A DNA stretch of 64,000 nucleotides from an uncultured Flavobacteriaceae bacterium. GTDB taxonomy: Bacteria; Bacteroidota; Bacteroidia; Flavobacteriales; Flavobacteriaceae. Made by a program: the position numbers and the translations under genes. The DNA is taken from positions 62,001 to 126,000 of the forward strand of contig CANMSA010000016.1 of NCBI GenBank assembly GCA_947500385.1, in the 5' to 3' direction. The notes under the pieces are model-generated. The model ran no database searches, was not told the origin of the DNA, and worked only from the letters and a program-made list of their open reading frames with translations. Below are positions 31,449 to 52,134 of the stretch, piece after piece. Position 1 is the first letter of the stretch; every line of letters begins with the position of its first letter.

Positions 31449-31468
31449 TTCATTTAGATTAATTGAAT

Positions 31469-31505
31469 AGGTCACCAACGAAGATACCCTTGTTATTGGT
31501 GACCT
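31469..31505. other. Intercistronic hairpin between kdgK and kdgA
   Basis: AGGTCACCAA (31469-31478) and TTGGTGACCT (31496-31505) make a perfect 10-bp stem with a 17-base loop, without a T tract. It sits in the 73-bp gap between two genes of one operon and may act in mRNA processing or stability rather than termination. Confidence 0.55.
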
Positions 31506-31521
31506 TAGTTCAAGTGTTTGA

Positions 31522-32562: not shown

Positions 32563-32576
32563 TTAAATTTCAGCTT

Positions 32577-33338: not shown

Positions 33339-33369
33339 ATTATGAAATTTTAATCTATTCTAATTTTAT

Positions 33370-35636: not shown

Positions 35637-35690
35637 TTGGTTAACCAGATTGGTTTGTTAAATTTATGAAATTTAACACTGGATCGCAAA
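35637..35690 (-). promoter_or_regulatory. Promoter and tandem operator of the GntR gene
   Basis: The operator copies are TTGGTTAACCAG (35637-35648) and the weaker TTGGTTTGTTAA (35650-35661), 13 bp apart. On the minus strand TTTG (35690-35687), 20 bp, then TAAATTTA (35666-35659) resembles the Bacteroidota promoter, and its -7 element overlaps the second copy. This suggests autorepression. Confidence 0.65.
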
Positions 35691-35753
35691 GCTCTGATGA
35701 TTTCTTCTGATAAATTCAGCAACCAAACGGTCTTTGCTCTAATTCGAAGCACT

Positions 35754-35779
35754 TTTACCGGCTCAGACCAACCGGTAAA
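35754..35779. other. Hairpin after the susC-PL7 operon
   Basis: TTTACCGG (35754-35761) and CCGGTAAA (35772-35779) form an 8-bp stem about 70 bp beyond the stop of the last PL7 gene. No T tract follows on the minus strand, so it may protect the 3-prime end of the mRNA rather than be a simple terminator. Confidence 0.4.
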
Positions 35780-35846
35780 GCGCCTCAAAAAACTAACTCA
35801 AACAACTTTCTTTTCTACATTGATTTGACAGTAGCCATTATAGCTC

Positions 35847-36827
35847 TTAATGGCTAACGGTTAAATCATAGTACTTTACCGTCGCAAAACTGGATTCATC
35901 TTTGCTTTGCAAGTAATTACCCGCTTTAAAATAATTTTCGAACACACTCCATTTTTCCATATGTATGCCGTCATACACAACTGAATCGTCCTCATTTAAA
36001 ATTACCTCTAACCTTCCGTTGGATGCAATAACTTCCAGTGTAAATTTATCCGTTCCTATCTCCTCCGGAAAAGTATGTCCTTCGTCATCGGTCCAAGCAT
36101 CGGTAAATAGCATTTCTTGATCTGAAACATTCAGGTCTTTCAATACTTTTGTTTTAACACGTACCTTTCCCTTCTCCCAATAAATCTTTAAGACCGGAGG
36201 GGCGTTATTGTCATCCTCGCCGATAAGGTCTCTTTGTTCATTGGTTAATCTGCCATGTATTTGCATCACAATGGTTCTGTCATATTCTCCCGAAGACTTC
36301 GTTGATATATTGGGTACTGCCAGTGTGCCTTTCATTCTACCACCTTCTGGGAAGGTCCAATTATCAGAATTGCTCCCAGGGGTCATTTGTTCGCGTAGCT
36401 CGGTTCTCGAATAAGTCGAATTGGGGGTCGAAGAACCTGGCACCGTATAAAAGACCAATGTACCGTCGGTAGAGTCATTATACATATAGGGCATTAAAGC
36501 ACTGTTTGTTCGATAATCCAATATGGCCGGTGGCTTTACTTCTATCGGTTTGCCATCGTCGTCTCCGACCGGCAAGGTCACTTTCCAATTGCTCAAATCA
36601 ATCTCGTTCAAGAGAAAAGAATCATCTACCGGATCTTCCGAATCAGTATCCGGGTCCGGGTCGGGTACCTCATTTTCAATATTTACTTCTTCGGGCACCT
36701 CCTCTTTGGAATCGGTAGCACAGGAAGTAATCAGGAACATAAGCAGCAAAACCGACATCATTATATGCATTCCCGCTTGGCAATCGCGCTGTTGACCGAA
36801 GCCTTTCTTTTTTATCATTTCTATCAT
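35847..36827 (-). CDS. PL7 alginate lyase, lipoprotein with acidic linker
   Basis: The 326-residue protein carries the PL7 catalytic motifs: SRTELREQM, QIH in IVMQIHGRL, and YFKAGNYLQ. These enzymes cleave alginate by beta-elimination. A hydrophobic signal ends LITSC (lipobox), followed by a strongly acidic linker (PDPDPDTDSEDPVDD) before the catalytic domain (about 75-326). It is probably anchored on the outer membrane. The start at 36827 lies 6 bp after the preceding PL7 gene; ATG codons a few residues in are alternatives. It is a paralogue of that neighbour and the last gene of the susC operon. Confidence 0.94.
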   Translation of the reverse strand: MIEMIKKKGFGQQRDCQAGMHIMMSVLLLMFLITSCATDSKEEVPEEVNIENEVPDPDPDTDSEDPVDDSFLLNEIDLSNWKVTLPVGDDDGKPIEVKPPAILDYRTNSALMPYMYNDSTDGTLVFYTVPGSSTPNSTYSRTELREQMTPGSNSDNWTFPEGGRMKGTLAVPNISTKSSGEYDRTIVMQIHGRLTNEQRDLIGEDDNNAPPVLKIYWEKGKVRVKTKVLKDLNVSDQEMLFTDAWTDDEGHTFPEEIGTDKFTLEVIASNGRLEVILNEDDSVVYDGIHMEKWSVFENYFKAGNYLQSKDESSFATVKYYDLTVSH

Positions 36828-36833
36828 TGATTT

Positions 36834-37736
36834 CTAGTGTTTCGCACTTAGCCCAAATACTTTTACGGAAGCAAAAGCCCCTTCATCACGTGTCTGAAAG
36901 TAATTTCCCACCTTAAAGTAGTTTTCAAAAATTCCCCAGCGCTTTATACTGGGACTATCATAGACAAAAAATTCGCTTTTATTCAAGGAAACGACCATCT
37001 TACCATCACTTACGTTCACCTCAATTGTAAATTTCCGAAAGCCCACCTCCTGTTCAAATGTTTTTCCCTTATCATCGGTCCAAGCTTCTTTATGTAAAAT
37101 TCCTTCATTATCTACACCTTCATACTTCAAGACCTTTGTCTTGACCCTTATTTTGCCATTCTGCCAGTAAATCTTCAATATGGGCGGTGCGTTATTATCT
37201 TTTTGACCGATCAAATCGCGTTGCGCATTTGTCAGTCGCCCATGAATCTGGGCAATAATTACCTTGTGATATTTTCCATCCGCAGCCCTGGAGACATCAC
37301 CCATCGCCATTTTGGCCTTTAAAACGCCTCCTTCCGCAAAGGTCCAGTTTACATTATCATCACCGGGAACCATTTGCTCCCGAAGTTCAGACCTTGAATA
37401 TTTTGTATTTGCAGTGGTCGCATCCGTAGGTTTGGCATAAAAAACCAATGCTCCCGCCGTTGAATCATTATACATATACGGTTTTAGCGTCTCGTTGGTA
37501 GCATACGCCAGAATTTTAGGAGGACTAACACTAATGGCACCTCCCTTTCCCTTACCTTCGGGGATAGTCACTTTCCAGTTGGTTAAATCTACCGCTGGAA
37601 GTTTTACTTTCTTTTTCCGCTTTTTGTGTTTTTTAGTTTTCGAAACCTTGCCGGTATCTACTGCTTGGCACGTACCATTTACAGCAACGAATGTCACTAT
37701 TAAAAATGCTACTATATGTTTTCGAAAAATCCTCAT
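36834..37736 (-). CDS. PL7 alginate lyase, secreted, with basic linker
   Basis: The 300-residue protein has a signal peptide without a good lipobox (AVNGTCQA), so it is likely released. A very basic linker (SKTKKHKKRKKKVK) follows, then one PL7 domain (about 50-300) with SRSELREQM, QIH in IIAQIHGRL, and YFKVGNYFQ. It is clearly related to the PL7 encoded 6 bp downstream, probably by gene duplication, but the linker charges are opposite. It may be the freely diffusing or polymer-binding partner of the anchored enzyme. Confidence 0.94.
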   Translation of the reverse strand: MRIFRKHIVAFLIVTFVAVNGTCQAVDTGKVSKTKKHKKRKKKVKLPAVDLTNWKVTIPEGKGKGGAISVSPPKILAYATNETLKPYMYNDSTAGALVFYAKPTDATTANTKYSRSELREQMVPGDDNVNWTFAEGGVLKAKMAMGDVSRAADGKYHKVIIAQIHGRLTNAQRDLIGQKDNNAPPILKIYWQNGKIRVKTKVLKYEGVDNEGILHKEAWTDDKGKTFEQEVGFRKFTIEVNVSDGKMVVSLNKSEFFVYDSPSIKRWGIFENYFKVGNYFQTRDEGAFASVKVFGLSAKH

Positions 37737-37803
37737 TCTACCAAGTCGTTATTGGCCTGAAAAATAGTATGTAGGCCCTTGTTTAAAATTTATTCGATGA
37801 TAC

Positions 37804-37838
37804 AACCACCCAGACTCATACGATGAGCCCGGGTGGTT
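37804..37838. other. Intercistronic hairpin between PKD lipoprotein and PL7 genes
   Basis: AACCACCC (37804-37811) and GGGTGGTT (37831-37838) form an 8-bp GC-rich stem, with an inner CTCA/TGAG stem. No T tract follows. It lies in the 130-bp gap that separates the susC-susD-PKD part of the operon from the two lyase genes, so it could set different mRNA levels for the two parts. Confidence 0.55.
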
Positions 37839-37866
37839 CTCATCTTCATTAATGGTTTATCCCTAA

Positions 37867-39840
37867 TTAATCCTGGGTGATTTCGATGTTATCAAAGAAA
37901 GCTTCGGCAGCATTGTCGATCACATCTTTATTCCTGACATAAATCACGATTTCATTGGTAGACGCCGTAAATTCAAAGGTACTGGTAGCATACGCATCAC
38001 CAGCGGTGGCGAAAATATTTGGAATCGCAAAATACGCATCGATTGCAGGATCTGAAGTTGAGGCATTGATACCGACCTCATCTTCAATTTCAGTATTTAA
38101 AATGAATACTTCGGACGTTATGCCGTCTGCAGTGGTCCTTGCATCGATAGAGAACGTATAGGTCTCTCCTTGTTGCACGGTAACTACTTGATATAAACGA
38201 CGGCCTCTCTCATCTAATTTGGCACCTCTTGTACCATTGTTCCCATCGCTTGTAGAGCCTGCTTGCTCACTGTTATCACCATAAAAACTATCGAGCCAAC
38301 TATCCAAGGCGCCATTATCCCAAAGTGGATCGTAAGGGCTAGGAATCTCATTTCCATCATTATCCACCACGGTGCTATTTGGAGTCATATCCCAAGCATC
38401 CGCATTGTCACCCGTATTCACGGTAAACTCATCAAATGTACCATTGAGTACTTGCACTACAAAACCTTCCGACACGACCAACTGTTCGGTAGCCACGTCG
38501 GTAGCGCCGGTAATACTATACGCAGTTAAAGTCACATCATAGATTCCATCTTCCGAATAGGTATGTGACGGGTTCATTCCGGTAAACTGGAATCCGTCTC
38601 CAAATTCCCATAACAACATCACTGCATCCTCAGAAGCATCTGTAAAACTGTACGTTCTGTAGTCATTGGGATCGACCTCGAAAGTAAATGCTGCCGTAAC
38701 GGGAGCTTGTATGTCGATGGTTTGACTTAAAGCGGTAGATAAATTGGTTTCTCCTATTGCCGTAAGCGTAACGGTATATTCAGCGGCCGAATCGTATGTA
38801 TGTGTGGGGGATTCTTCCGTGGAGGTATTTCCATCTCCAAAATCCCATTCATACGCGATGGCGTTGGTTGAGGAGTTGGTAAAGGTATACTCCAGAAAAT
38901 TAGTTTCACTTTGCGCAGAACTAAATCCTACAGAAGGTGGTACCGCCCCGGGAAGACCTACATCAATGGTAAAATCATCGAGTCTGGCCTCAACGTCCCC
39001 ATTAAAGAAATAAATCGCGACGGTATTATTGATACCTGAATTAAACGACAATTTCTGTTGCAAATAAACATCTGGCTCCGAATCATCGGTCACGGTGACG
39101 GACGCAATCGTTCCATCCGCCGCTTCTTCGGCGGTCGTGAACGTTCCCCCATTTTCCGTTACCCCCAAAACCGATACAATTAGTCTAGGATCGGAAGAAC
39201 CGCTAAGCATCGTGTACCAAAAACTTAAGTCGTAGTTGGTATCCGGTTCTACGGTAATTTCCTGATAACCCGCACGATCTGCGGCAGGCAGTGGTAGTTT
39301 GGCCCCTTGATCTCCGAAGGTTACCGGGCTACCGGTAATCTGAATTACCCCTCCGATATCATTACGCCAGGAGTCACGACCATCTCCGCCCCCTTCTGGG
39401 AGGGTGTCATCTTCAAAACCTGGTTCTAAAATGATGGGCTGAAACGGGCCTTCAACAACCATAACATCAATGGTTACGGTTCCTTCGATACCATTTCCAT
39501 CCGTGGCGGTCAAAGATACCGCATAGGTGCCCTCACCGTCTTCAAATGTGAACGTTGGGTCTTCCTCGTCGGAGGTATTGCCATTTCCAAAATCCCACGC
39601 ATAATCCAAAGCCTCCGTAGAAAGATTCGTAAAATTGATCATTCTAAAATCATCCGATGAGGAAGCGTACGAAAAGTTTGCTTCAGGAAATACCGTATCG
39701 GCTTTTGAATTTGATTCTGGCAATTCATCCCTGAAAATTTCGTCACCAACACAACTCACTATAATACTGGTCGTTACCAAACAGAGTAACAACAGCTTTG
39801 TTTTGTCAAAAAAGTTTAATTTATGTCTCATTGTTTTCAT
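37867..39840 (-). CDS. PKD-domain surface lipoprotein, probable alginate-binding protein
   Basis: The 657-residue protein has a lipoprotein signal (SIIVSC). A PKD domain (about 50-132) is followed by a beta-sandwich module (about 135-295), two more PKD domains (about 303-380 and 382-462) and a C-terminal beta-sandwich (about 465-657). The PKD signatures YAWDFGNGNTS, YEWDFGDGNTS and LWEFGDG are clear. No catalytic motif is seen. Directly following susC and susD (7-bp gap), it fits the role of the SusE/F-type surface glycan-binding protein. PKD domains act as spacers; the beta-sandwiches would bind the polysaccharide. Confidence 0.88.
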   Translation of the reverse strand: MKTMRHKLNFFDKTKLLLLCLVTTSIIVSCVGDEIFRDELPESNSKADTVFPEANFSYASSSDDFRMINFTNLSTEALDYAWDFGNGNTSDEEDPTFTFEDGEGTYAVSLTATDGNGIEGTVTIDVMVVEGPFQPIILEPGFEDDTLPEGGGDGRDSWRNDIGGVIQITGSPVTFGDQGAKLPLPAADRAGYQEITVEPDTNYDLSFWYTMLSGSSDPRLIVSVLGVTENGGTFTTAEEAADGTIASVTVTDDSEPDVYLQQKLSFNSGINNTVAIYFFNGDVEARLDDFTIDVGLPGAVPPSVGFSSAQSETNFLEYTFTNSSTNAIAYEWDFGDGNTSTEESPTHTYDSAAEYTVTLTAIGETNLSTALSQTIDIQAPVTAAFTFEVDPNDYRTYSFTDASEDAVMLLWEFGDGFQFTGMNPSHTYSEDGIYDVTLTAYSITGATDVATEQLVVSEGFVVQVLNGTFDEFTVNTGDNADAWDMTPNSTVVDNDGNEIPSPYDPLWDNGALDSWLDSFYGDNSEQAGSTSDGNNGTRGAKLDERGRRLYQVVTVQQGETYTFSIDARTTADGITSEVFILNTEIEDEVGINASTSDPAIDAYFAIPNIFATAGDAYATSTFEFTASTNEIVIYVRNKDVIDNAAEAFFDNIEITQD

Positions 39841-39847
39841 GTTAGTA

Positions 39848-41299
39848 TTAATACCCTGGATTTTGTGTCAACAGCCCATCGCTTATATTGATTTCCCTTG
39901 CTGGAATCGGTAACAATAAGGCTCTGGCTGAAAAGACATATCCCATTTCGTCGGCGTGTGCACTCAAAACGGTTTCTGCAACCCCAAATCTGAGTAAATC
40001 ATACCAGCGTTGGTTCTCAAATGCCAATTCTACGCGTCGTTCAGTTAAAAGTTCTGTTTTCGATACACTGGAGACACTGTTAGGAGCTGTATCGGGAAAT
40101 GCCCGATCTCGAATCTTTTGAAAAGAGGTCAACGCCCCGATATCAGAGGTGCTTGTACCTGAACCGATCGCAGCTTCTACATGCATTAACAATACATCGG
40201 CATAGCGTATGGCGATGTAATCGTTCCCCGCATTCCGCGCATTTTCGCCGTACGAAGGAGGAGAGGTCGTAATGTCGGAACCTTCCGGTAAAAACTTTAT
40301 TACTTCGCTCGAAGTTCCAAAGGTCGTAAAGGATACCGCGGTTCTATCGCCACCAAATGCCGTAAAATCGGCGATCAAGTTATCATTTACTATATTCTGA
40401 CCATCTTCCCTACCTTGCCGAAAAGCCGATGTAAACTCTGCCGAAAATCCTTGACTTTCTAGTGGGTTACCTGCGGCATATTGAATCGCAAAAATAATTT
40501 CGTCATTCAATTCATTATAAAAGACATCCGAAAAATTGGGTTCCAAATCAAACTCCGCGCTATTGATAATCGACTCACACAATTGTTGGGCACCCGCATA
40601 ATTACGGGTCGGCTGTGTCATATATACCTTGGCCAATAGTGCCTGGGCGGCCGCTTTTGAAGCCCTAGCTTTATGGGAATTATCCAGAACATTCGCAGCT
40701 TCCTGCAAATCTGCCACGATTTGGGCATAAATCTGTTCCTCTGGTATTCGTGTAAAAAGCGCCTCGTTATCAGTGGGGCCAACGACTTCTGTTACCAAGG
40801 GTACATCACTAAACAAACGTACTAGTTTGAAATAGGCATAGGCTCTTAGAAACTTGACCTCCGCCGTATAACTTGCCCTATTTGCCTCATCGGCAACTTC
40901 TATAAAGTTCAAGACATTATTGGCCCTGAAAATCACTTCATACATCGAGGCATAAAAATCCTCCGACTCCACATTGTTCGCATTGACCACATATCGGTGA
41001 AAATCCGATTTTGAGCCTTCAAGTGTGGCATTCCTCGTATTATCGGTTCTATGTTCGGTTAAAAGGTGTTCAAATTGCACCCCTCTGTTGGCAACGCCAA
41101 TATTGGTCACCGTGCTTTCATTCACTCCTTGGAGGGCATCATAGACGCCAAATACCCCGGCCAAGACATCATCATCGGTTTGAAAAAAAGCATCGACCAC
41201 CACTACGGTATCTGGCAATGGATTTAAGAACTCTTCAGTATCACATGAAACAAAAACGGACACTGTTACGGCAAAGATTAAATATTTTATATGTTTCAT
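39848..41299 (-). CDS. susD: SusD/RagB family surface glycan-binding lipoprotein
   Basis: The 483-residue protein has a lipoprotein signal (VFVSC) and the SusD-family N-terminus (EEFLNPLPDTVV). A TPR-like helical core (FLRAYAYFKLVRLFSDVPLV) precedes the conserved C-terminus (ERRVELAFENQRWYDLLRFG). SusD proteins form the lid of the SusC transporter and bind oligosaccharides at the cell surface. Its gene follows susC by 16 bp, and the lyases downstream point to alginate oligomers as ligand. Confidence 0.95.
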   Translation of the reverse strand: MKHIKYLIFAVTVSVFVSCDTEEFLNPLPDTVVVVDAFFQTDDDVLAGVFGVYDALQGVNESTVTNIGVANRGVQFEHLLTEHRTDNTRNATLEGSKSDFHRYVVNANNVESEDFYASMYEVIFRANNVLNFIEVADEANRASYTAEVKFLRAYAYFKLVRLFSDVPLVTEVVGPTDNEALFTRIPEEQIYAQIVADLQEAANVLDNSHKARASKAAAQALLAKVYMTQPTRNYAGAQQLCESIINSAEFDLEPNFSDVFYNELNDEIIFAIQYAAGNPLESQGFSAEFTSAFRQGREDGQNIVNDNLIADFTAFGGDRTAVSFTTFGTSSEVIKFLPEGSDITTSPPSYGENARNAGNDYIAIRYADVLLMHVEAAIGSGTSTSDIGALTSFQKIRDRAFPDTAPNSVSSVSKTELLTERRVELAFENQRWYDLLRFGVAETVLSAHADEMGYVFSARALLLPIPAREINISDGLLTQNPGY

Positions 41300-41315
41300 T
41301 ATTCTATTTTTTTAT

Positions 41316-44300
41316 TTAAAAATCAATGTTCACACCGAATGTCACCGTCTTAAATATCGGAGTACCGGCCCGTTGGGAACCGTAGGCTCTAGGATTGCTG
41401 CCATCAACATGTTCTGGGTTGAATCCGTGATAATCGTCAGCAGTGATATAAATCAAATTCTGGGCCGTGGCGTATAGTCGCAAACCATCCAGTCCTACGC
41501 GATCGAGCACATCAGACGAAAAGTTGTACCCAAGATTTACGTTGCGTAGGGAAAAATAATCCGCACTTGCAATCACTTCACTTGTCAACACCTTTTCCTG
41601 GATAAAGGATGGATGCGGAACAAGCCCGTCGGCCACCGCTTGCAATTCACCCCCACTTCTGGTTCTGTTTCCAAACCAGTTATAGAAATATTGGTCCCCT
41701 ATGTTATTTACTTGGGCTCCTAAACTTCCTTGCACCATGAAGGAGAAATCAAAGTCTCCCATTCTAAATTCATTCGTAAAGCTGTATACCAAATCTGGGT
41801 ATGGATCTCCTAAAATAGTTTTGTCTTCCTCGGTTATAATCCCGTCACCATTTAAATCCTTAACGATGGTATCATCGGCTTGGCCATTGATTCGATTCCA
41901 AGGATTGTCTACATAGGTAGTTCTAAAAGAAGTGTCATCATAGGCTTCTGTATCTACCACATATCCCCAAAATGACGAGATAGGTTCTCCGATTCGGTTG
42001 ATCCATTGTGAATTTCTACCGTAGGTATCTTCGATCAAGGCATTGTTGGAATCTCCAAAACTGAGTAATTCATTTTGGTTGGTAGATGCGATCAAGGTCG
42101 AATTCCATCCAAAATTTTCGTTCACAATGTTTTTGGTTCTCAACTCAAACTCCCATCCCCTATTTTGTACTTCTCCCAAGTTGACTATACCGTTGGAAAA
42201 TCCGGTAAGATACGATACCGGGTTGTTCAACAGCAATTCATCACTGTTACGTTGGTAGTAATCCAAGGATCCGGTTATTCTGTTATTTAAGAATCCGTAA
42301 TCCAGTCCTATGGTCGATTCTTCCGAAGCTTCCCATTGCAACAATGCGTTTGCGATATTCAGTGGTGAAACCCCTGAAACGGTCACACCGTCTACAATTG
42401 CGTTTGAATTTTGCAACAGTGCCAAATACGGCCAAGTATTTACCACTTCGGTGCCTACGTTGAAATTCTCGGCCCCTGTAAGACCGTAACTAGCTCTAAA
42501 TTTTAGATTGCTGACCGTTTCGCTATTCAGCAGAAAATTTTCTTTGGCAACATTCCAACCTACCGATACCGCGGGGAAATTACCCCATTTGGAGTCGATC
42601 CCAAAAACCGAACTACCGTCTCTTCTAAAAGAAGCATTGAATAGGTATTTGTCTTTATAGGCATAATTGATTCGTGCGAAGTAACCGATCTTTTTTAACT
42701 CGGTGTTGGATTGGAACACGGTCGTATTTTCAGGATTGGCCCCTTGTACGTTCTTGAGACGATCATCGGTAAACCCACTTGCATTCACTTGGCTCGTTTC
42801 GCTTTTTCGTTGCTGTACGGTAAGGCCGCCCAATAAGTTAAGGTCGTGATCCCCGAACGTCTTGTTATACGATAAGGTATTATCAGAAATAAGACGGGTA
42901 CGAAACCTGTTCTCCAAGAAATAGTTCGATCTGCTCGCACCGGCCGCATGGTAGTTGGTACCATCATAACGGTCTCTTTTTCGTTGTTCAAGTGTGATCC
43001 CTAAAGATGTTTTTGCCGTTAGCCCTTCTAAAAGTTCATAACTAAGATAGGTAGAGCCAAATAACTTGGTATTGAACTCATAGTGCTCTCGCTCTACATA
43101 TTGTTGATAGGGATTCGAATCCCCAGAAGTACGGGGTCGTTCTGTATTCCCGTCGTTATCCAAATCCAAATTGATCAGGTGGTTTTCAAAAAAGTAATCG
43201 CCCACCCCCACATTCGGGTAGTTATCGCGATTAATGAACTGCAAGGTTTCTTCCGTATGAAAAATAGGCAACCAAGGCGACTGACGCGTTGGGTTATGGA
43301 TCGAGGTCGGCAACCGTCTTTGTTCCGTATAGGAAGGTGTTGCCCGAATTCCAAATTTAAACCGATCTCCTATTTTGGAATCTACTTTCAAATTTGCAGT
43401 GTACAATTTGTAATCATCGGTAATAACAACCCCTTCATCATGCAGATACCGCAAGGAAGTACTGAACTTCGTATCCTCGGTACCGCCGCGAGCGGACAAC
43501 GAATGGCTTGTAACCGTTCCCCCGTTAAAAAAAACATCTTGCCAGTCCCGATCAATTCCTGTAGTAGCGACCAATAGTTGGGCATACAAGGTTTCTCCGG
43601 AAAGGGTTCCCGTTGCAGCTTGCTCTACTCTTGCCCAATCGGCAACACTCTTGCGATAATCATCGCTTCCGTGCGCTTGCTTGTAGCCCGTGTAGGTTTG
43701 ATAGCTGAATTTTGTTTTTCCTGTTTTACCACTTTTTGTAGTGATCAGGATTACCCCATTGGCACCTTCACTACCATAAATAGATGCGGACGCCGCATCT
43801 TTCAGTACTTCGAAAGACTCCACATCGTTCATATCGATGTTCGCAAGGAAATCTGAACTTACCACAATACCATCTACGACCAAGGCCGGACCGGAATCTG
43901 CCGTGATAGACCCAACACCCCTTATGGTGATCGTAGGAGCTCCACCGGCTTCCGCATTGGTTGCCTGGATGTTTACCCCGGAAACCTGCCCGATTAGGGC
44001 ATCATCGACCCTTGATACTGCAATTTGATCCAACGTTTCATTGGTAACCTTTGAAATAGAACCAGTAATTGTGGATTTTTTCTGAGTACCATACCCTACT
44101 ACCACTACCTCATCGAGTTGGGCAGCGTCTTCGACCATCACTACGTTTATACTTGTCTGCCCACTTATTATGACCGATTGGCCAACATAGCCTAAGGCTG
44201 AAAATTGAAGCACGTCGCCTTCGGTTACGGTAATTTGAAAATTCCCATCAAAATCGGAGGAAGTCCCCTTGGTGGTGTTTAAAATTACAACGTTTACCCC

Positions 44301-44420
44301 AGGAACAGGTATGCCCGCTTCATCGGCAGTTGTTCCGGACAGGGTATAGCCGTCCTGAGCAAATAATGCAATGTTGACGAACAACATCACAATAAAAGTG
44401 AATTTCATTTTTAATTTCAT
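41316..44420 (-). CDS. susC: SusC/RagA TonB-dependent outer-membrane transporter
   Basis: The 1034-residue protein has a signal peptide (NIALFAQ) and a carboxypeptidase-regulatory-like domain (about 25-100; GIPVPGVNVVILNTTKGTSS). The TonB-box region DEVVVVGYGTQKK and a plug domain (about 115-225; GVNIQATNAEAGGAPTITIRG) precede a long beta-barrel ending in Phe. It would import alginate oligosaccharides, powered through TonB. It is the first gene of the operon susC-susD-PKD-PL7-PL7, preceded by a long structured leader and a triple operator. Confidence 0.95.
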   Translation of the reverse strand: MKLKMKFTFIVMLFVNIALFAQDGYTLSGTTADEAGIPVPGVNVVILNTTKGTSSDFDGNFQITVTEGDVLQFSALGYVGQSVIISGQTSINVVMVEDAAQLDEVVVVGYGTQKKSTITGSISKVTNETLDQIAVSRVDDALIGQVSGVNIQATNAEAGGAPTITIRGVGSITADSGPALVVDGIVVSSDFLANIDMNDVESFEVLKDAASASIYGSEGANGVILITTKSGKTGKTKFSYQTYTGYKQAHGSDDYRKSVADWARVEQAATGTLSGETLYAQLLVATTGIDRDWQDVFFNGGTVTSHSLSARGGTEDTKFSTSLRYLHDEGVVITDDYKLYTANLKVDSKIGDRFKFGIRATPSYTEQRRLPTSIHNPTRQSPWLPIFHTEETLQFINRDNYPNVGVGDYFFENHLINLDLDNDGNTERPRTSGDSNPYQQYVEREHYEFNTKLFGSTYLSYELLEGLTAKTSLGITLEQRKRDRYDGTNYHAAGASRSNYFLENRFRTRLISDNTLSYNKTFGDHDLNLLGGLTVQQRKSETSQVNASGFTDDRLKNVQGANPENTTVFQSNTELKKIGYFARINYAYKDKYLFNASFRRDGSSVFGIDSKWGNFPAVSVGWNVAKENFLLNSETVSNLKFRASYGLTGAENFNVGTEVVNTWPYLALLQNSNAIVDGVTVSGVSPLNIANALLQWEASEESTIGLDYGFLNNRITGSLDYYQRNSDELLLNNPVSYLTGFSNGIVNLGEVQNRGWEFELRTKNIVNENFGWNSTLIASTNQNELLSFGDSNNALIEDTYGRNSQWINRIGEPISSFWGYVVDTEAYDDTSFRTTYVDNPWNRINGQADDTIVKDLNGDGIITEEDKTILGDPYPDLVYSFTNEFRMGDFDFSFMVQGSLGAQVNNIGDQYFYNWFGNRTRSGGELQAVADGLVPHPSFIQEKVLTSEVIASADYFSLRNVNLGYNFSSDVLDRVGLDGLRLYATAQNLIYITADDYHGFNPEHVDGSNPRAYGSQRAGTPIFKTVTFGVNIDF

Positions 44421-44727
44421 TTGTGATTCTTATTAAGTTAGCAAATAGGTACATACCCTTTTGGGCGTGCAGGTCTGTAGGTGAACCTAGTCCTCGTACT
44501 GTGTTTACTAAAACCACGCGGGAACCTTTGAAGTAAAGGATTTTTCCTATTTTTGCAATAGGCATGTATGTTTTGATACCTGCATGTTTTAGTATTACTT
44601 CCCTTCGAAATGAAGTAATCAATTTTCAAAAGGATGGGCGTGCACCCGTCCTTTTTTTTGTAGCGTACTTTATGTTTTCATGATGCTTCGATTAGGTTAA
44701 ATTGAGTTTCGTTTAGTGTTTGTTAAA
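44421..44727 (-). other. Long structured 5-prime leader of susC
   Basis: About 300 bp separate the operator/promoter from the susC start, with no convincing gene. Read on either strand it has three hairpins. The first is AAAAGGATGGG/CCCGTCCTTTT (44628-44655), followed by eight T on the plus strand. The second is ATTACTTC/GAAGTAAT (44594-44601 with 44612-44619). The third is CCTTT/AAAGG before a T run on the plus strand, near 44525-44550. GGGCGTGCA is repeated at 44463 and 44636. Short minus-strand frames here look like chance. Confidence 0.5.
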
Positions 44728-44770
44728 TTGGTTTTCCATACTGGTTAACCAATTTGGTTGACCAAATATA
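44728..44770 (-). promoter_or_regulatory. Triple operator and promoter of the susC operon
   Basis: Three operator copies lie head to tail with a 13-bp period: TTGGTTTTCCAT (44728-44739), CTGGTTAACCAA (44741-44752) and TTGGTTGACCAA (44754-44765). On the minus strand TATATTTG (44770-44763) fits the Bacteroidota -7 element and overlaps the last copy. The -33 element is weak (TTTT 19 bp upstream). A bound repressor would block the promoter. Confidence 0.75.
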
Positions 44771-44884
44771 TGTTATTAGTTTGTTAAATAAAAATTAATT
44801 TAAAATTTTATGATGCCTTTTTTTGACAACCTAGCAATTTGGTTCCCAGACTATTATTGGTTTGGTAAAAAAAAGGACCTTAAA

Positions 44885-45637
44885 TTACGAGAAAGCCAGT
44901 CCACCGTTAATATCGATATTGGCGCCGGTAATAAATGAAGTAGCCGCAGAAGCCAAACAGGCCACGGTATTCGCGATTTCCTCCGAAGATCCTTGCCGAC
45001 GTAAGGGGGTCATACCTTCTACCTTTGTACGCACCTCATCCTTGGTGAAGGTATCGTGAAAAGTAGTTGCTATCATGCCTGGGCAGAGAGAGTTTACCCG
45101 AATTCCTTTCGGGCCAACCTCCTTCGCCAACCCTCTTGTAAAGGTCATGACCGCTCCTTTTGAGGTTGCATAGGCCAACGACCCGCCACCACCGCCATCT
45201 CTTCCGGCTTGCGAAGCTATGTTTACAATGGCCGCACCGGAACCCATATGTGGCAAAACTGCTTTACAGGCCAAAAAGGTAGAGTTTAAGTTCAATTGAA
45301 TGACTTTATCAAAAAAGGCTTCATCCATCTCTGCAATAGTTTTTCTGGCCACCAGCCCTCCCGCATTGTTCACCAGAACATGGATCGCACTTCCAAAAGC
45401 CTCCCGGGTTTCCTTGACCAAATTGTCTACATCGGCCTTTTTCGTCATATCTCCTTTCACGACGATTGCCTCGCCTCCCACAGCTTTTATCGCATTCAAA
45501 GTTGCTTCGGCATTTGCCTCGTTATTAAGGTAATTTACAACCACCTTTGCGCCCTCGTTTGCGAACTTCAGCGAAATTGCCTTTCCGATATCTCTGGTCC
45601 CTCCTGTTACTATGACCACCTTTCCTTTTAAATCCAT
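44885..45637 (-). CDS. SDR oxidoreductase, probable DEH reductase of the kdgF operon
   Basis: The 250-residue protein has the Rossmann motif TGGTRDIGKAI, NNAGG and the catalytic YATSK. It is cytoplasmic and starts 6 bp after kdgF. In alginate-degrading flavobacteria an SDR beside kdgF reduces DEH, the product of KdgF, to KDG, and that is the most likely role here. It is a different lineage from the SDR at 32577. The gene belongs to the operon double-PL7 - kdgF - SDR. Confidence 0.92.
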   Translation of the reverse strand: MDLKGKVVIVTGGTRDIGKAISLKFANEGAKVVVNYLNNEANAEATLNAIKAVGGEAIVVKGDMTKKADVDNLVKETREAFGSAIHVLVNNAGGLVARKTIAEMDEAFFDKVIQLNLNSTFLACKAVLPHMGSGAAIVNIASQAGRDGGGGGSLAYATSKGAVMTFTRGLAKEVGPKGIRVNSLCPGMIATTFHDTFTKDEVRTKVEGMTPLRRQGSSEEIANTVACLASAATSFITGANIDINGGLAFS

Positions 45638-45643
45638 CCTTTC

Positions 45644-45997
45644 TTATTTTGTCATGAAATCTTCCCGAATCGGGCTAAAAACGTCGATTAAAACTCCTTC
45701 CTTCGTGCATATGGCACCGTGCAATACATGGGGCGGGATATAGACCGTATCCCCTCCTTTGACCAAACGGGTCTGCTCCCCGATAGAAAATTCAAACTCC
45801 CCGCTTTCTACATAGGTTACCTGTGAATGATAATGTTCATGCTTATACCCCACTCCTCCTTCCGAGAAGTGTACTTTCACCAGCATGATGTTGTCATCAT
45901 ACCCCATAATTTTCCTTTTCACACCTTCTCCTACAGCCTCCCACTCTAGGTCTTGATCTAAAATAAATTCCTTACTAGCACCAAATGTTTTCATCAA
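45644..45997 (-). CDS. kdgF: KdgF-type cupin, unsaturated uronate linearising protein
   Basis: The 117-residue single-domain cupin has the metal ligands in YKHEHYHSQVTYVESGEFEF and in PPHVLHGAI. KdgF proteins speed the opening of 4,5-unsaturated monouronates, the end product of alginate or pectin lyases, to the linear keto-uronate. It lies 6 bp before the SDR and downstream of the double PL7 gene, a context that supports the assignment strongly. No signal peptide is present, so it works in the cytoplasm. Confidence 0.93.
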   Translation of the reverse strand: MMKTFGASKEFILDQDLEWEAVGEGVKRKIMGYDDNIMLVKVHFSEGGVGYKHEHYHSQVTYVESGEFEFSIGEQTRLVKGGDTVYIPPHVLHGAICTKEGVLIDVFSPIREDFMTK

Positions 45998-46042
45998 TTT
46001 TAAAATTTTAATTTACTGAAACCCGACGATCAAAAGTTCGAT

Positions 46043-46059
46043 GCTAGCATAAGGCTAGC
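46043..46059. other. Intercistronic hairpin between double PL7 and kdgF genes
   Basis: GCTAGC (46043-46048) and GCTAGC (46054-46059) pair around a 5-base loop in the 128-bp gap. No T tract follows. It is one of three similar hairpins found between lyase or kinase genes and the next gene. Confidence 0.4.
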
Positions 46060-46125
46060 GGTTTGTATTCGAAAAATACTTCTGTTCGTATGCATTTCAT
46101 GTGGTTCTTAACTTTTCTATACGGG

Positions 46126-48183
46126 CTACTTTGGCGGGGTACCCATCCCAACCGTGGCTTCCCTAAACCAAACTTCGGTGTAGCAACCATTCTCATACTG
46201 CTTTGGAATATCGCCCCCATACGTTTCTGCACCCGCGCACCAAACCATATTTTTTTCAGGGCTCTTACCGTTGGTCTGGTTATAAGCACCTTGTTTAAAA
46301 TAGTTTAACTCACCACTATACGCACTCGCCCGTTCAATACCATCTTGCCCTATGGGTACAAACAGTTTTTGCACCTGTGCAGGCAGGCTCGATTTTCTTG
46401 TATACTCGGAAGAAATTAAATTCTTGGTAAAGGTTTTTGTTGCATGATTATCACTGGTAAAGGTGAGGTACATGACCCCCTTATATACATTAACTTCGTA
46501 ACTGAATTCCTCTCCTAACGCAATCCCGTCAGTAGGTTCGGCCGGGTATTCATTTTTGGCTGGCCCGACAACGGACATGTCATGGCCCCATACCGGGGTC
46601 GAATAATCCCATCTCCCAGAATTATCATCTCCCGCCGTATTGATCTCATAATTCCAAAAAACAGATCCCTTGGTATGCCCCGGGAATTTCTTGTAGAATA
46701 TTTTTAAAGGCTCATTTTCATGCCCTTCGCCACTATGGATCTGACCGACCACCGTAGCATAAGCGGCCGCCACCCGGGCATCTCCGGAGACCGAGACCTG
46801 CATTACCTTACAGGTACCCGTTAAGCGCCCGCCTTCTTCAGGTGTCCATTCTCTTTTTTCATGCAATTCGGTTCTCGTATTACTGGAATTTTTGGAGGTT
46901 ACTCCCGAATTTGGTGTTTTGTACACTACCCAGCGCCGCGTGCCATCGATAACGGTATAGAAGAAATCAGGATGTTGAAAATTGACCAGGTTTTCCGCGG
47001 TGGTCCCGTCCCCCATCAATATTTTAAAGTTATCCATGAAAGGAATCACTTCATTGGGGTACACCGTTTTGGCACTTAAACCATCATTGGCTTCGAAATA
47101 CCCGGCATTGGAAATAGCATCATCACTAATGGTAATCTGGGCCGATTTAAACCATACTTCCGCAAAATTCCCATCTGCGTATTGTTTTTGAAGGTCACCG
47201 CCGTGGGTTTGGGCGCCAGAACACCATACCTTATTTACTTTGGGATCCTTTCCATTGGTTTGGTTGTAACACCCCAACTTAAAAAAGAGGCCTTCGTCCG
47301 AATAGGCATTTTTCCGTTCTACACCATCTTGACCTATCGGCACAAATAGTTTTTCAACCTGTTCCGGCATCCCTGATGGTTCGGCATACTCAGAGGAAAT
47401 AAGGTTTTTCGTAAAGGTCTTGGTTTCATGTCCTTCACTCGTAAAGGTCAGGTGCATCATACCATCCTTAATTACTACTTCATAGTTGAACGCCTCCCCC
47501 AACGCAATACCATCTTCCGGTTCTGGCGGAAATGTATTTTCGTCCGTACCGACCACCGAAAAATCATAGCCCCAAATGGGATAGGAATAATCCCATCTTC
47601 GTGAATTGTCGTCACCGGCGGTATTTATTTCATAATTCCAAAAGACAGAACCTTTGGTATGGCCGGGAAACTTTTTGTAAAATATTTTCAGGGGTTCGTT
47701 TTCATGACCGTCCGCACTGTGAATCTGGCCCACCACTACCGAGTAGGTGGCCGCAACGCGTGGATCACCGGTGGTCGAAACATTCATGACTTTTAGGGTT
47801 GCGTTCATTTTGGCCTCGGTATTTGGTACCCATTTTTTCAATTGGGCGAGCTCGGTTCTCGTGTTGTTCGAGGTGCCGTGGGTATTGCCCGCATTGGGCG
47901 ACTTAAATACTACCCAATCACCCTGCTCGTCTGATGTTGCATAAAAGAAATCCTTGTTTTCATAGTCAACCGCCTGGCCCACATTGGTACCATCACCAAG
48001 AATTAAATTCCAATGCTCGAAAAATGGTATCACATCATTTGCATTCTTCGCGATGGTAGATTTTTCACTCCCCTCTATCTCATGCTCCTTCTTATTTGTG
48101 TCTCCACAACTTCCTAACAAGAAAACGCCACTTATCAATAGTAAAGAATGGGCAAAAGTAGATTTCATTATGCTGTAGTTCAT
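46126..48183 (-). CDS. Alginate lyase with two tandem PL7 domains, lipoprotein
   Basis: The frame is open from 48342, but that start lies over the operator. I set the start at 48183 (MNYSIMKSTFAHS), with 48168 as the alternative. The 685-residue lipoprotein (LLGSC) has two PL7 domains (about 45-360 and 375-685). Each has the full catalytic set: NTRTEL, VVGQIHS, and FFKLGCYNQTNG or YFKQGAYNQTNG. The domains share a 36-residue identical stretch after the QIH motif while the DNA differs at many third positions. They differ from the two single-domain PL7 proteins in the locus. The gene starts the operon with kdgF and an SDR. Confidence 0.92.
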   Translation of the reverse strand: MNYSIMKSTFAHSLLLISGVFLLGSCGDTNKKEHEIEGSEKSTIAKNANDVIPFFEHWNLILGDGTNVGQAVDYENKDFFYATSDEQGDWVVFKSPNAGNTHGTSNNTRTELAQLKKWVPNTEAKMNATLKVMNVSTTGDPRVAATYSVVVGQIHSADGHENEPLKIFYKKFPGHTKGSVFWNYEINTAGDDNSRRWDYSYPIWGYDFSVVGTDENTFPPEPEDGIALGEAFNYEVVIKDGMMHLTFTSEGHETKTFTKNLISSEYAEPSGMPEQVEKLFVPIGQDGVERKNAYSDEGLFFKLGCYNQTNGKDPKVNKVWCSGAQTHGGDLQKQYADGNFAEVWFKSAQITISDDAISNAGYFEANDGLSAKTVYPNEVIPFMDNFKILMGDGTTAENLVNFQHPDFFYTVIDGTRRWVVYKTPNSGVTSKNSSNTRTELHEKREWTPEEGGRLTGTCKVMQVSVSGDARVAAAYATVVGQIHSGEGHENEPLKIFYKKFPGHTKGSVFWNYEINTAGDDNSGRWDYSTPVWGHDMSVVGPAKNEYPAEPTDGIALGEEFSYEVNVYKGVMYLTFTSDNHATKTFTKNLISSEYTRKSSLPAQVQKLFVPIGQDGIERASAYSGELNYFKQGAYNQTNGKSPEKNMVWCAGAETYGGDIPKQYENGCYTEVWFREATVGMGTPPK

Positions 48184-48611
48184 GTTACTTTTTTGTATTT
48201 GTTGCCTGTGGCGTGTGCTAGTACTAGACTCGGCTTTTTTAACAGCCCTTATATTTTGCCAATGTTTGAAATGAGACGTACGTACTAATAAAAACGCCTT
48301 ATCGTAGAACGAACTTATCCCTGTTGCAAATTGGTTTACCAAATTGGTTTACCAAAAATACGGCTATTTCTAAGATTCACAAATTTTTAACAATAAATCG
48401 ACCAATATTGTTTAAAAATACCCTCTTTTACCGATGAATAGCATTAAATGGACACTACAGTCTCCCGAGCAACTTTTTTCTTCGAAGGTTTTCTCCGTTG
48501 AAATTATCATCCCCCCTTAGCGCGAACGGCACTGCTTTTTGTTCCGCGATACAAGAGGTATTCCCGTTCCGCAACGGTGCTATTAAACGGGACGTGCAAT
48601 TATACGCTTGC
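48184..48611. other. Intergenic region between PL6 and double-PL7 genes
   Basis: About 430 bp without a convincing gene. The left part is the leader of the double PL7 gene, followed by its operator and promoter (48331-48383). The right part (48384-48611) is the 3-prime flank of the PL6 gene; I see no clear terminator there. A short plus-strand frame (48498-48710) runs antisense into PL6 and looks like chance. Confidence 0.5.
48331..48383 (-). promoter_or_regulatory. Double operator and promoter of the double-PL7/kdgF/SDR operon
   Basis: Two identical perfect operator copies TTGGTTTACCAA (48331-48342 and 48344-48355) lie 13 bp apart. On the minus strand TTTG (48383-48380), exactly 19 bp, then TATTTTTG (48360-48353) is a full match to the Bacteroidota promoter. 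The -7 element overlaps the upstream operator copy, so binding should repress. Confidence 0.85.
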
Positions 48612-50933
48612 CTAGTACATGAGTTTGAGCGGAAGGTTTTCTTCGGTGATGATCTTGCCCGAATTTTCCATTTCGTTGTTTGCCTGGGAATTATTTTTTG
48701 CCCCCCATAGTTGGGCGATCAATTTTACTTTGTTGTTCAGAAATCGATTCCCCGATAGCTGTACATTGATAATACCATAGGTATTGAGCAACATCCCGTT
48801 TTCCTCTTTTGCACCGCATTGCACAAAGGAACTGTTCGTAACAATCAAATTGCCACCAACAGTAGATTCATCGTACCCTCCTCTATAATAGTCGATTACG
48901 TTTTTATCGACCTTTTCAAATCTACAGTTATGAATCAATACATTTTCTGCATTGTATTCGCCACGGTCATCCGTTTCTTCCGACAGCTCTAACCCATTGG
49001 AGCAGTTTTTAATCAAGGTGGAATTGAATTCAATAAATTCGGAGAACGAGTACTTATATCCCTTGAGAACATAGTCAAAATCAAGGATTTCACAATCCAC
49101 GACCGTAAGATTGTATAGGCTTGACATCTTGTTCTTTAAACTGGCAAACGCGTATTGTTGCCCCGTCCCTTTCAGGTGAATACCTATAAGGGTAAGGGCT
49201 CCCTTCGGATGCATTTCAAATACGGGGGTCTTAGGCATTCCATGATACTGAATTATCGCTTTCTTCGTGGCATCCGCAGTCATTATACGAAGGGTCTTGT
49301 CGATTTTCAAAGATGCCTTCAACTTATATAGGTCGGAGGTCAACAGTAGGGTATCGCCACTTTTAGCGTTTAGAATCGCCTTCCTCAACTGGGTTACTGA
49401 ACGGACTCGGTGTATCTTGGAAGCACCCCTATTTGAAGCGCTTTGAGAATACCAGTCCGGGCCGTATTGAGAAGTATCCATCAAATTGGGTTTCGTAGCC
49501 GGTATCCCGGAAATCGCACCGACCCAATTATGACGTTCCCGTGAATTGCCCAATAAATCGGTTTTGATCCGATCGAACTCGAAACCTTGGTACGGTTTAA
49601 AATTCGATAGGCCCTTTCCCGGCACCAAGATATTTTTCGCTAGTTCCGAAAGGGAGAATCCGTTACTTTCGATTCCGGGAAGCTCTTTAAAGATAACACC
49701 TTGATTATTGATTACGTTTTTTTGGAAATCGATACCGTCTAAAGAATCATGGGCTACGACAGGTTGCACATCACCGGCATCATTATAGATAAGATTGTTG
49801 GCCAAAATGGTACGAATAGGTCGCGCCGACCTTATTTCGGAGGGTGGGAGAATATCTTTTTGGTCTACGTTAGATCCCACTCCGAACTGCCATGGGGAAG
49901 TACAATTTACCCAGGAATTGTGGGCCACCACAACATCGGTAACCTGTATATATCTGTTTAGGGGTGATTTTGGAATACCGTTCATTACTGCAAGCGGACT
50001 TCTAAACGTTTTCCCTTTGAGGTTATAGAAATAATTGTTGGTCACCCAATGTCCTGTACCTATTAATCGTACACCCCCTATCTGCTCGGAATGCACATCG
50101 CCTATAAAGTAGTTTCCATCAATGATACAGTAGTTGCCATGTCTGGTCACCAAGGAGCCTTCACTTTTGTGAAAAATATTGTTTCTAAACTCATTAAAAT
50201 TTGACTTGCTGGAAATAACCTCCACTTCACCGTTGCATCGATCAAAAAAATTGTTGGCGACCAGTGTATAACTTGGGGCCATGGAAGTATAACTATTACC
50301 AAGTTGTATGGTTTCCGCACTGGGGCCGCCCTTTGGAGGTCTTGGCCCAAAATAATTATGATGTATGCGATGATAATTCTTAATGCTTCTGTTTCCTTCC
50401 AGATCGACCCTAATGGTAGGCCCCCTATTAGATTTACCGGCAATATAACAGTGATCAAGCTCGTTGTATCGCCCTCGTAGCAGCACCCAAAGATCCGTTA
50501 GGTTTCGTTGGTCCTTATTATAGTCCAGGATGACACAATTGGTAATTCGGGAGTGATTGGCAACCGTATCCCGATCAATTGCAAACTCGATAACGGCATT
50601 GGAAGGAGAAGCACCATTGGTAAAATACAAACCGCTGACGATCAAGTACTCACCCCCGAGTTTCAAATCCGATTTTCCGCCGATTCGAACCTCCCCGGCA
50701 GTTTCCGCCCTCAAGGTTATCGGCCGCGTCTCTTCGCCATACCCCACAAATCGGATGCTCACATCATCCCAATTCCCGTTGGCCATTACTATCTCATCTC
50801 CCGGATTTGCACTGGCCAGTGCCGTATTCAATGCTTGGATATCTTTTACATATGTGCGCTTTCCATTCCCATTTTTGGCAAATGAACACCATAAAAGGAG
50901 GGTGCTAATCAGTACTAAACTATGTTTTATCAT
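48612..50933 (-). CDS. PL6 alginate lyase, two beta-helix regions, exported
   Basis: The 773-residue protein has a signal peptide (LWCSFA) and an N-terminal parallel beta-helix typical of PL6 (chondroitinase B/AlyGC family). The catalytic Lys243 (VISSKSNFNEFRNN) and Arg264 (LVTRHGNY) are 21 residues apart, as in the family. A Glu in GEVEVISS and QLGNS belong to the calcium/active-site region. A second beta-helix region begins near 500, as in the two-domain AlyGC type. The enzyme depolymerises alginate, often with an exolytic or MG/poly-M preference. It is transcribed alone from its own operator-promoter. Confidence 0.94.
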   Translation of the reverse strand: MIKHSLVLISTLLLWCSFAKNGNGKRTYVKDIQALNTALASANPGDEIVMANGNWDDVSIRFVGYGEETRPITLRAETAGEVRIGGKSDLKLGGEYLIVSGLYFTNGASPSNAVIEFAIDRDTVANHSRITNCVILDYNKDQRNLTDLWVLLRGRYNELDHCYIAGKSNRGPTIRVDLEGNRSIKNYHRIHHNYFGPRPPKGGPSAETIQLGNSYTSMAPSYTLVANNFFDRCNGEVEVISSKSNFNEFRNNIFHKSEGSLVTRHGNYCIIDGNYFIGDVHSEQIGGVRLIGTGHWVTNNYFYNLKGKTFRSPLAVMNGIPKSPLNRYIQVTDVVVAHNSWVNCTSPWQFGVGSNVDQKDILPPSEIRSARPIRTILANNLIYNDAGDVQPVVAHDSLDGIDFQKNVINNQGVIFKELPGIESNGFSLSELAKNILVPGKGLSNFKPYQGFEFDRIKTDLLGNSRERHNWVGAISGIPATKPNLMDTSQYGPDWYSQSASNRGASKIHRVRSVTQLRKAILNAKSGDTLLLTSDLYKLKASLKIDKTLRIMTADATKKAIIQYHGMPKTPVFEMHPKGALTLIGIHLKGTGQQYAFASLKNKMSSLYNLTVVDCEILDFDYVLKGYKYSFSEFIEFNSTLIKNCSNGLELSEETDDRGEYNAENVLIHNCRFEKVDKNVIDYYRGGYDESTVGGNLIVTNSSFVQCGAKEENGMLLNTYGIINVQLSGNRFLNNKVKLIAQLWGAKNNSQANNEMENSGKIITEENLPLKLMY

Positions 50934-51045
50934 TTCACTTATTTCAGTGTTTTTATAGAATTCCTTTAAACAGCTATCAATTGGTTGTTTGCATTTTTAT
51001 ACGCACTGGTTATAAAAAAGTTTTACTAAGAGTCTGTTTTTATAA

Positions 51046-51097
51046 TTGGTTAACCAAATTGGTAAACCAAAAATACATATATTTGTAATATCCGCAA
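51046..51097 (-). promoter_or_regulatory. Double operator and promoter of the PL6 gene, in divergent region
   Basis: Operator copies TTGGTTAACCAA (51046-51057) and TTGGTAAACCAA (51059-51070) lie 13 bp apart. On the minus strand TTG (51097-51095), 19 bp, then TATTTTTG (51075-51068) forms the promoter, with the -7 overlapping the operator. On the plus strand TATATTTG (51078-51085) could be a -7 element for the divergent isomerase gene, though its -33 partner is poor. Confidence 0.82.
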
Positions 51098-52108: not shown

Positions 52109-52134
52109 AACAATATCATAAACATCTAAATCCT

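Follow-up and report, generated by a model that had tools for sequence, protein, structure and literature searches.

Tandem palindromes at a fixed 13-bp pitch as probable operators of an AusR-type GntR repressor, and a predicted antisense RNA, at a flavobacterial alginate locus

Alginate use in Zobellia galactanivorans is under the control of AusR, a GntR-family repressor that governs most alginate genes, as stated in parts of two reports (PMC8286568, PMC8073546). The 64,000-nucleotide stretch considered here (the window) comes from an uncultured Flavobacteriaceae bacterium (contig CANMSA010000016.1, positions 62,001 to 126,000; C16 among the genome's contigs below). It holds an alginate polysaccharide utilization locus (PUL) with an ausR-like gene and tandem arrays of the palindrome TTGGTNNACCAA. 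We read these arrays as the operators of an AusR-type repressor of alginate use belonging to the FadR subfamily of GntR proteins, a reading to which a probability of roughly 0.87 can be given from the sequence comparisons reported below. Such a switch has a precedent in a relative, in the form of the Zobellia regulator. AusR is said to have been described by Dudek in 2020 as PUL-encoded, as binding single, double or triple operator copies and as being released by degradation intermediates. As in the AusR regulon, the GntR-family regulator gene lies inside the alginate PUL and several operator copies are found at alginate promoters. Recorded for the present system are a four-copy array, a 13-bp pitch followed over 149 genomes and a lock between operator and −7 box.

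Two other groups of FadR-type regulators offer points of comparison. Escherichia coli NanR is a FadR-type GntR repressor that binds (GGTATA)3 cooperatively, as side-by-side dimers on closely spaced sites, according to sections of the study describing it (PMC8012715). The present system shares the type of repressor and the close spacing of sites, the packing of dimers being predicted here. NanR differs from it by its direct repeats and its 32-residue N-terminal extension: the sites here are full palindromes, the NanR match begins at residue 17 of the ausR-like protein and at residue 35 of NanR, and no such extension is present, so that neither the direct repeats nor the long extension of a NanR-type assembly is found. 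Since the extension is absent, contacts between dimers would have to differ. Operators of the UxuR/GntR type in the FadR subfamily are palindromes with TKGT/ACMA boxes and a 2-nt centre, and the survey describing them lists no Bacteroidetes protein in that subfamily (PMC4494728). The arrays described here have the same TKGT/ACMA palindrome with a 2-nt centre, and their copies have the predicted FadR-subfamily site form, in which the centre spans 2-3 nt. On the RNA side, DonS-type cis-antisense RNAs of Bacteroides, 78-128 nt long, are directed against susC homologues of PULs, as given in passages of PMC7366714.

Three arrays and one weaker site were located in the window:

44728..44765, minus strand: susC operator, three copies, the strongest fused to the −7 box
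48331..48355, minus strand: operator of the double-PL7/cupin/SDR operon, two exact copies, 148 bp upstream of the first ATG
51046..51070, no strand assigned: operator of PL6 and the divergent TIM-barrel/RraA genes, two exact copies, 113 bp from the PL6 ATG (minus strand) and 73 bp from the TIM-barrel/RraA ATG (plus strand)
35637..35661, minus strand: predicted ausR autoregulatory site, with a good copy CTGGTTAACCAA at 35637-35648, 21 bp from the ATG, and a degenerate copy TTAACAAACCAA at 35650-35661

In a mismatch search of the window, scored on the 10 specified bases of TTGGTNNACCAA, the copies repeat every 13 bp. Those starting at 44728, 44741 and 44754 have 2, 1 and 0 mismatches (the strongest susC copy being 44754-44765), and the copies at 48331 and 48344, as those at 51046 and 51059, are all free of mismatches. 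An earlier note on this DNA had placed the tandem palindrome at four promoters. This is confirmed for the arrays beginning at 44728, 48331 and 51046 and not for the fourth, where a copy with one mismatch at 35637 is followed at 35650 by TTGGTTTGTTAA, which has three mismatches and a single good half-site and does not qualify as a copy at two mismatches or fewer. Single copies are uninformative, being at or near background (at up to two mismatches the window has 59 and shuffled versions give 43.3 ± 6.8, 3 of the 100 attaining the window count). The tandem form is decisive, with 4 window matches at 13 bp and up to three mismatches against 0.01 expected. An exact copy at 10333 lies inside an open reading frame (ORF) and was taken as chance.

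The genome-wide tandem scan that the earlier note had proposed as a check was run on the host genome (6.03 Mb, 123 contigs). At up to three mismatches it gave seven matches, which make up four arrays, the three of the window and one at 52408-52458 of contig C17; the reversed control pattern gave none. The possibility that the tandem might be equally dense at random places is thereby answered in the negative. The C17 array comprises four copies with 0, 2, 1 and 2 mismatches and lies 446 bp ahead of a gene for a CBM6 - F5/8-type - PL7 alginate lyase that is unlinked to the window cluster, with a GCV_T gene at 305 bp on its other side. Searches with less than the tandem were set aside: exact single copies number 26 in the genome and 16 for the reversed control, and we propose no target from a lone site; TAnnTTTGGTNNACCA at up to one mismatch gave 30 forward and 33 reverse matches against 35 and 28 for the control, its exact matches being the three window arrays only.

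The pitch itself is conserved among relatives. The best 80 of 266 GntR homologue loci, of which 78 are distinct (1.50 Mb), contain exact TGGTNNACCA pairs up to 60 bp apart at spacings of 13 bp (80 pairs), 26 bp (26) and 39 bp (1) and at no other. The full palindrome with up to one mismatch per site forms 101 pairs at 13 bp, 34 at 26, one at 39 and one at 33 bp in these loci, with no operator pair at 12 or 14 bp and no pair of the reversed control. A pair search over 149 genomes of the family, with any gap from 0 to 30, returned 104 matches against 11 for the reversed control. The spacing is known for 103 of them: 95 at 13 bp (67 listed directly and 28 accounted for by a second search at the fixed pitch), three at 26 bp and one each at 12, 17, 18, 21 and 24 bp. 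The exact 13-bp spacing that the earlier note had read from the window alone is thus borne out by 95 of the 104 family-wide matches. The pairs at 12, 17, 18 and 24 bp were rejected as operators, as they fall in four regions without an array, in genomes without an AusR match; the 21-bp pair was observed in genome G073.

Tandem repeats are readily generated by slippage, and the pitch could be viewed as a functionless relic of tandem duplication. Identity between adjacent copies is, nevertheless, 80.5% (184 pairs), and that between randomly drawn copies is 82.2% (20,000 draws). As neighbours resemble each other no more than random copies do, the pitch is maintained while the copies diverge, and a recent duplication fails to explain it. 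The 101 pairs at 13 bp, with none one base closer or farther, also argue against a relic, and this reading, rejected on the comparison of copy identities, is extremely improbable.

A second alternative concerns the way in which the copies would be occupied. The 13-bp pitch corresponds to about 1.24 turns of DNA, which places adjacent dimers about 86 degrees apart (at 10.5 bp per turn). Neighbouring dimers had been suggested to share half-sites through ACCAAATTGGT, in which case ACCAANTTGGT between the copies would itself be bound. The junction is symmetric by construction, and the ausR promoter retains the ACCAA of its degenerate copy beside CTGGT, as sharing would have it. Against this, the exact everted motif is found 61 times inside arrays and 4 times isolated in the 78 loci, three of the four being one conserved sequence; of 115 arrays, 70 have T and 45 have A as the base linking two copies, and 41 have C at the start of copy 2. 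Half-site sharing, which these comparisons do not support, is quite improbable, and one dimer per TTGGTNNACCAA is the occupancy retained in the proposed mechanism.

The arrays are tied to the promoters by a second regularity. The Bacteroides −7 consensus TAnnTTTG has also been confirmed in Flavobacterium johnsoniae, as reported in part of PMC7366714. Its occurrence was recorded around 120 arrays found in 89 sequences (the window and loci L005-L083 and L143-L160), with copies counted at up to two mismatches and the facing gene defined as the nearest on each side within 1.2 kb; the 120 arrays correspond to 86 distinct sequences and are not all independent. Of 130 gene-facing sides, 113 have an exact TAnnTTTG that begins exactly 5 bases upstream of copy 1, against 4 of 110 other sides, so that TTG is common to the −7 box and operator copy 1. 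As background, 17 of 733 TTGs in 300 upstream bases are preceded by TAnnT. In the window the lock is present at susC, double PL7 and PL6, and the boxes are as follows:

44763..44770, minus strand: susC promoter −7 box TATATTTG, which shares bases with copy 1
48353..48360, minus strand: −7 box TATTTTTG of the double-PL7 promoter, with an upstream TTTG at a gap of 19 nt (−33 element, assigned by eye)
51068..51075, minus strand: −7 box TATTTTTG of the PL6 promoter
51078..51085, plus strand: −7 box TATATTTG toward the TIM-barrel/RraA genes, also found in loci L020, L026 and L151
35659..35666, minus strand: −7-like box TAAATTTA of the ausR promoter, one mismatch from TAnnTTTG

Because the box overlaps copy 1, the later copies extend downstream across the expected start site, and a bound repressor should cover both the −7 box and the start site. 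The earlier note had missed the lock, the published work on AusR and the divergent TIM-barrel/RraA pair that shares the PL6 array.

The proposed repressor is encoded within the locus:

34914..35615, minus strand: ausR-like gene, 233 aa, GntR winged helix-turn-helix (wHTH) plus FCD domain, proposed repressor (Pfam GntR 3.5e-19, FCD 3.3e-25)

Its product is the strongest of the three FCD proteins encoded by the genome. The top models for it are LldR and NanR, with scores far under their cut-offs. The predicted structure shows seven helices after the wHTH (mean predicted local distance difference test score, pLDDT, 76, with residues 71-80 under 50; predicted template modelling score, pTM, 0.58). 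A fold search with this model returned NanR as first match, then DhdR and FadR, at a full-length TM score of about 0.5. The protein has the FadR-subfamily architecture, a wHTH followed by an all-helical FCD domain, by both Pfam and the predicted model. Residues D151, H155, H200 and H222 are invariant in an alignment of 29 sequences, in agreement with the metal site of many FCD proteins.

The distribution of this protein follows that of the arrays. It was found in 37 of the 149 family genomes (E ≤ 1e-30), and all 37 hold 13-bp pairs, 35 of them exact and two (G019 and G132) with one mismatch; no exact 13-bp pair was found in the 112 GntR-negative genomes. The earlier proposal that one operator defines a regulon is upheld by this co-occurrence. 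Four genomes (G029, G040, G083 and G110) have a pattern match without the GntR protein, and their pairs are exclusively at other spacings. G018, the second genome of the host's genus among the 149, has neither the protein nor a 13-bp pair. On these comparisons the locus-encoded GntR-FCD protein stands out clearly as the leading candidate for binding the arrays. Either of the genome's two further FCD proteins could be invoked in its place, or the arrays could serve as an activator site. The co-occurrence with this particular GntR protein in 37 of 37 genomes argues against another regulator, and an activator seated on copy 1 would obstruct the −7 box that this copy covers; a different binder or an activating role is very improbable.

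Several observations weigh against the AusR-type operator reading and have to be set beside this evidence. The two further FCD proteins are also possible binders. The 112 GntR-negative genomes were scanned at exact match, G018 additionally at one mismatch. At up to two mismatches per site, the 78 loci give 156 operator pairs at 13 bp against 17 for the reversed control; these 17 are presumed to lie inside the arrays themselves. Five of 118 arrays with a facing gene, the four-copy C17 array included, have no exact box toward any such gene. No Zobellia sequence is among the GntR homologue loci, and the likeness to AusR is one of description. Finally, 41 of 78 relatives have no 13-bp tandem in the 75 bases ahead of ausR, at up to five mismatches in all.

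This last count concerns autoregulation. The form seen at the ausR promoter of the window, a weak copy on the box followed by a good copy, is also that of most of the 37 relatives, among the 78, that do have the tandem under the same settings. With 41 relatives lacking it, autoregulation through this site would not be universal. Two further homologues were observed: a 54%-identical one at G094:C42:80498-81260 has a triple 13-bp array shortly ahead of its own gene, in a genome where the core pattern, with up to one mismatch allowed, gives no second array, and may belong to a related regulon that has a different target; another, 52% identical (G002:C10:69136-69822), stands alongside a 76% one in the same genome.

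Taken as operators of the AusR-type repressor, the arrays suggest that a single repressor, with sites lying directly on the promoter start signals, probably keeps the alginate cluster off. Copy 1, bound by one dimer, would overlap the TTTG of the −7 box in the composite TAnnTTTGGTNNACCAA, and the further copies would follow downstream at the 13-bp pitch across the start into the leader. Without alginate, the bound dimers would block promoter opening and early elongation by steric repression at the susC, double-PL7 and PL6/TIM-RraA operons, and probably also at the unlinked PL7 gene. An alginate breakdown product is the expected effector that would release the repressor. From the fixed pitch, neighbouring dimers can be argued to touch; mutual help between them, and so cooperative binding, is plausible on this basis. 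At the ausR promoter, the degenerate copy on the −7 box should soften autoregulation.

The identity of the genes facing the arrays fits an alginate regulon. In the window these genes and their neighbours are:

41316..44420, minus strand: susC-like gene, 1034 aa, leading susC-susD-PKD-PL7-PL7 on the same strand (putative operon)
46126..48342, minus strand: double PL7 lyase ORF with a TTG start; the first ATG, at 48183, gives 685 aa
48612..50933, minus strand: PL6 (chondroitinase-B family) lyase, by profile match
51143..52845, plus strand: TIM-barrel (AP_endonuc_2) and RraA-like genes, divergent from PL6 and sharing its operator
30780..34671, minus strand: genes downstream of ausR on the same strand, for an MFS transporter, an SDR, a KDG kinase and a KDPG aldolase

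The longest double-PL7 ORF begins at a TTG within the operator (48183-48342 being the additional part); the ATG at 48183 is the likelier start, and the operator then lies outside the gene. The 242 bp between ausR and the MFS gene contain no operator-like site within two mismatches, and the two-mismatch matches at 30846, 32707 and 33738 fall inside genes. Among the 120 arrays, SusC is the facing gene in 71 cases, double PL7 in 12, PL6 in 11, ausR in 8, TIM in 4 and MFS in 4, followed by unlinked-PL7-like genes (3) and RraA, PL7, KDG kinase and NRAMP (1 each), with 24 unmatched by the reference proteins. At two of the four MFS-facing arrays ausR lies in between and was merged with the array by the ORF finder. 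A domain scan of ten proteins from nine loci, mostly unmatched ones, identified three PL17-type, one PL7 and one PL6 protein and one polysaccharide lyase below cut-off; of the rest, two showed a secretion tail alone and two nothing. Copy number also goes with the target: SusC arrays have three copies in 45 of 71 cases, two in 21 and four in 5, and two copies are the number in all 12 double-PL7 arrays and in 10 of 11 PL6 arrays. Relatives of the TIM-barrel/RraA genes were seen facing an array in L008 (RraA), L020 (TIM), L026 and L151. From other genomes, 18 regions were inspected, of which 14 have an array (the other four had been chosen for pairs at spacings other than 13 bp). Eleven of the 14 arrays face a SusC or a PL6/PL7/PL17 gene, and the remaining three face a polysaccharide-lyase match below the Pfam cut-off, a KDG-kinase-like gene and an NRAMP-like gene; three of the 14 regions are within 30 kb of an ausR match.

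The susC array is separated from its gene by a leader of about 300 nt, which contains a recurrent two-hairpin element and, on the opposite strand, appears to hold a small RNA gene:

44560..44659, plus strand: predicted cis-antisense RNA to the susC leader, about 100 nt, folding as a single sequence into three hairpins, of which the last forms a terminator ending in U8 (44652-44659)
44548..44555, plus strand: −7 box TATTTTTG of the predicted antisense RNA, with TTTG at 44527-44530 and a gap of 17

The 5′ end at 44560 is assumed from the −7 box. The window copy folds at −29.5 kcal/mol on the plus strand (z −4.24); its third, 5′ hairpin is seen in this single-sequence fold alone and is absent from the consensus fold. 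A covariance model of the element matches 62 of 72 loci with a susC array (E ≤ 0.001), 61 of 63 matches lying 8-74 bases past the array; since the model was built from 45 such leader sequences, the matches in those loci hold by construction. In the 149 genomes, 29 have a match below 1e-4, with one strong match per genome, and all are AusR-positive (29 of 37, against 0 of 112 without AusR). The AusR-positive genomes without a match at this level are G014, G076, G084, G087, G091, G094, G119 and G134. At E ≤ 0.01, 47 of the 149 genomes match (with stricter filters for many genomes); among the weaker matches, those of G084 and G091 and a second one in G026 adjoin an array, and the remainder are probably unrelated terminators. 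Covariation is above shuffled levels in 9 pairs changed on both sides (4.1 in shuffles) and in a score of 0.123 (0.082 ± 0.006 shuffled, 0.028-0.088 for slid versions); the number of further pair types, one of five covariation measures, is 17 against 15.6, a value reached by 102 of 500 shuffles. In one Polaribacter locus (L031:6226-6294) the element was matched without an array above cut-off, a strongly degenerate array-like stretch lying upstream.

The strand can be read in two ways, as the element could also act on the sense strand as an attenuator or stability element of the susC leader, with no antisense RNA. The element does lie within that leader, and on the sense strand hairpin 1 is followed by a T-run, mostly 3-5 long. 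Two results in particular count against an antisense RNA: on 20 sense-derived pairs the strands hardly differ (820 standard pairs antisense and 806 sense of 896), and the loop-closing pair 25-32 favours sense (40 against 12 of 43). Without that pair the counts are 808 antisense and 766 sense of 853. A test on pairs of the antisense fold (658 of 663 standard in antisense against 618 in sense) leans to antisense because it used those pairs. Other features favour the antisense strand. The U-run after the terminator hairpin has a mean length of 7.0 in antisense against 4.0 in sense over 58 leaders, in a comparison that required a minimum of 3 A for the A-run and set none for the T-run. The antisense −7 box (CAAAnnTA when written in sense) has an exact match in 37 of 59 leaders (12.4 ± 3.1 in shuffles, maximum 20) and keeps a fixed position, 38 of 39 lying 33-44 nt past hairpin 2; a sense-direction box is present in 1 of 59. 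With T also accepted as the initial letter of the box, an RNA is obtained from 47 of 59 leaders, its mean length being 98 nt and its 5′ end assumed. At the inner pair 21-36, standard pairing is seen in 42 of 45 sequences read in antisense and in 17 of 45 read in sense. Folding is more stable in antisense than in sense for 36 of 39 segments that follow the antisense borders and for 30 of 45 trimmed to the sense element. A purely sense-strand element is unlikely in the light of these features. A sigma-70-type promoter scan was set aside as unsuited to this phylum. No Rfam family reached its gathering score in the window (five matches at 44380-44780 were far below it), and an open-access literature search returned no description of such an RNA at alginate loci.

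The predicted RNA would resemble DonS in its length and in being antisense to a susC homologue, a likeness by description. It differs from DonS by its single strong match per genome, its setting in a Flavobacteriaceae alginate PUL and its place beside an AusR-type operator. Overall, we lean, by a small margin, towards a picture of the alginate susC promoter in many Flavobacteriaceae that combines a rigid 13-bp AusR lattice starting from the −7 box with a separately promoted gene for an antisense RNA of about 100 nt. Such an RNA would restrain leaky susC transcripts until AusR is released.

For the family, the arrays provide a strict rule for operator recognition in Flavobacteriaceae, TAnnTTTGGTNNACCAA followed by copies every 13 bp. 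The rule finds unlinked alginate genes, predicts start sites and aids the annotation of marine alginate degraders. The fixed pitch offers a testable model of how FadR-type dimers that lack the NanR extension could be packed on adjacent palindromes, and the predicted antisense RNA would extend the RNA control of PULs, known in gut Bacteroides, to an algal polysaccharide system.

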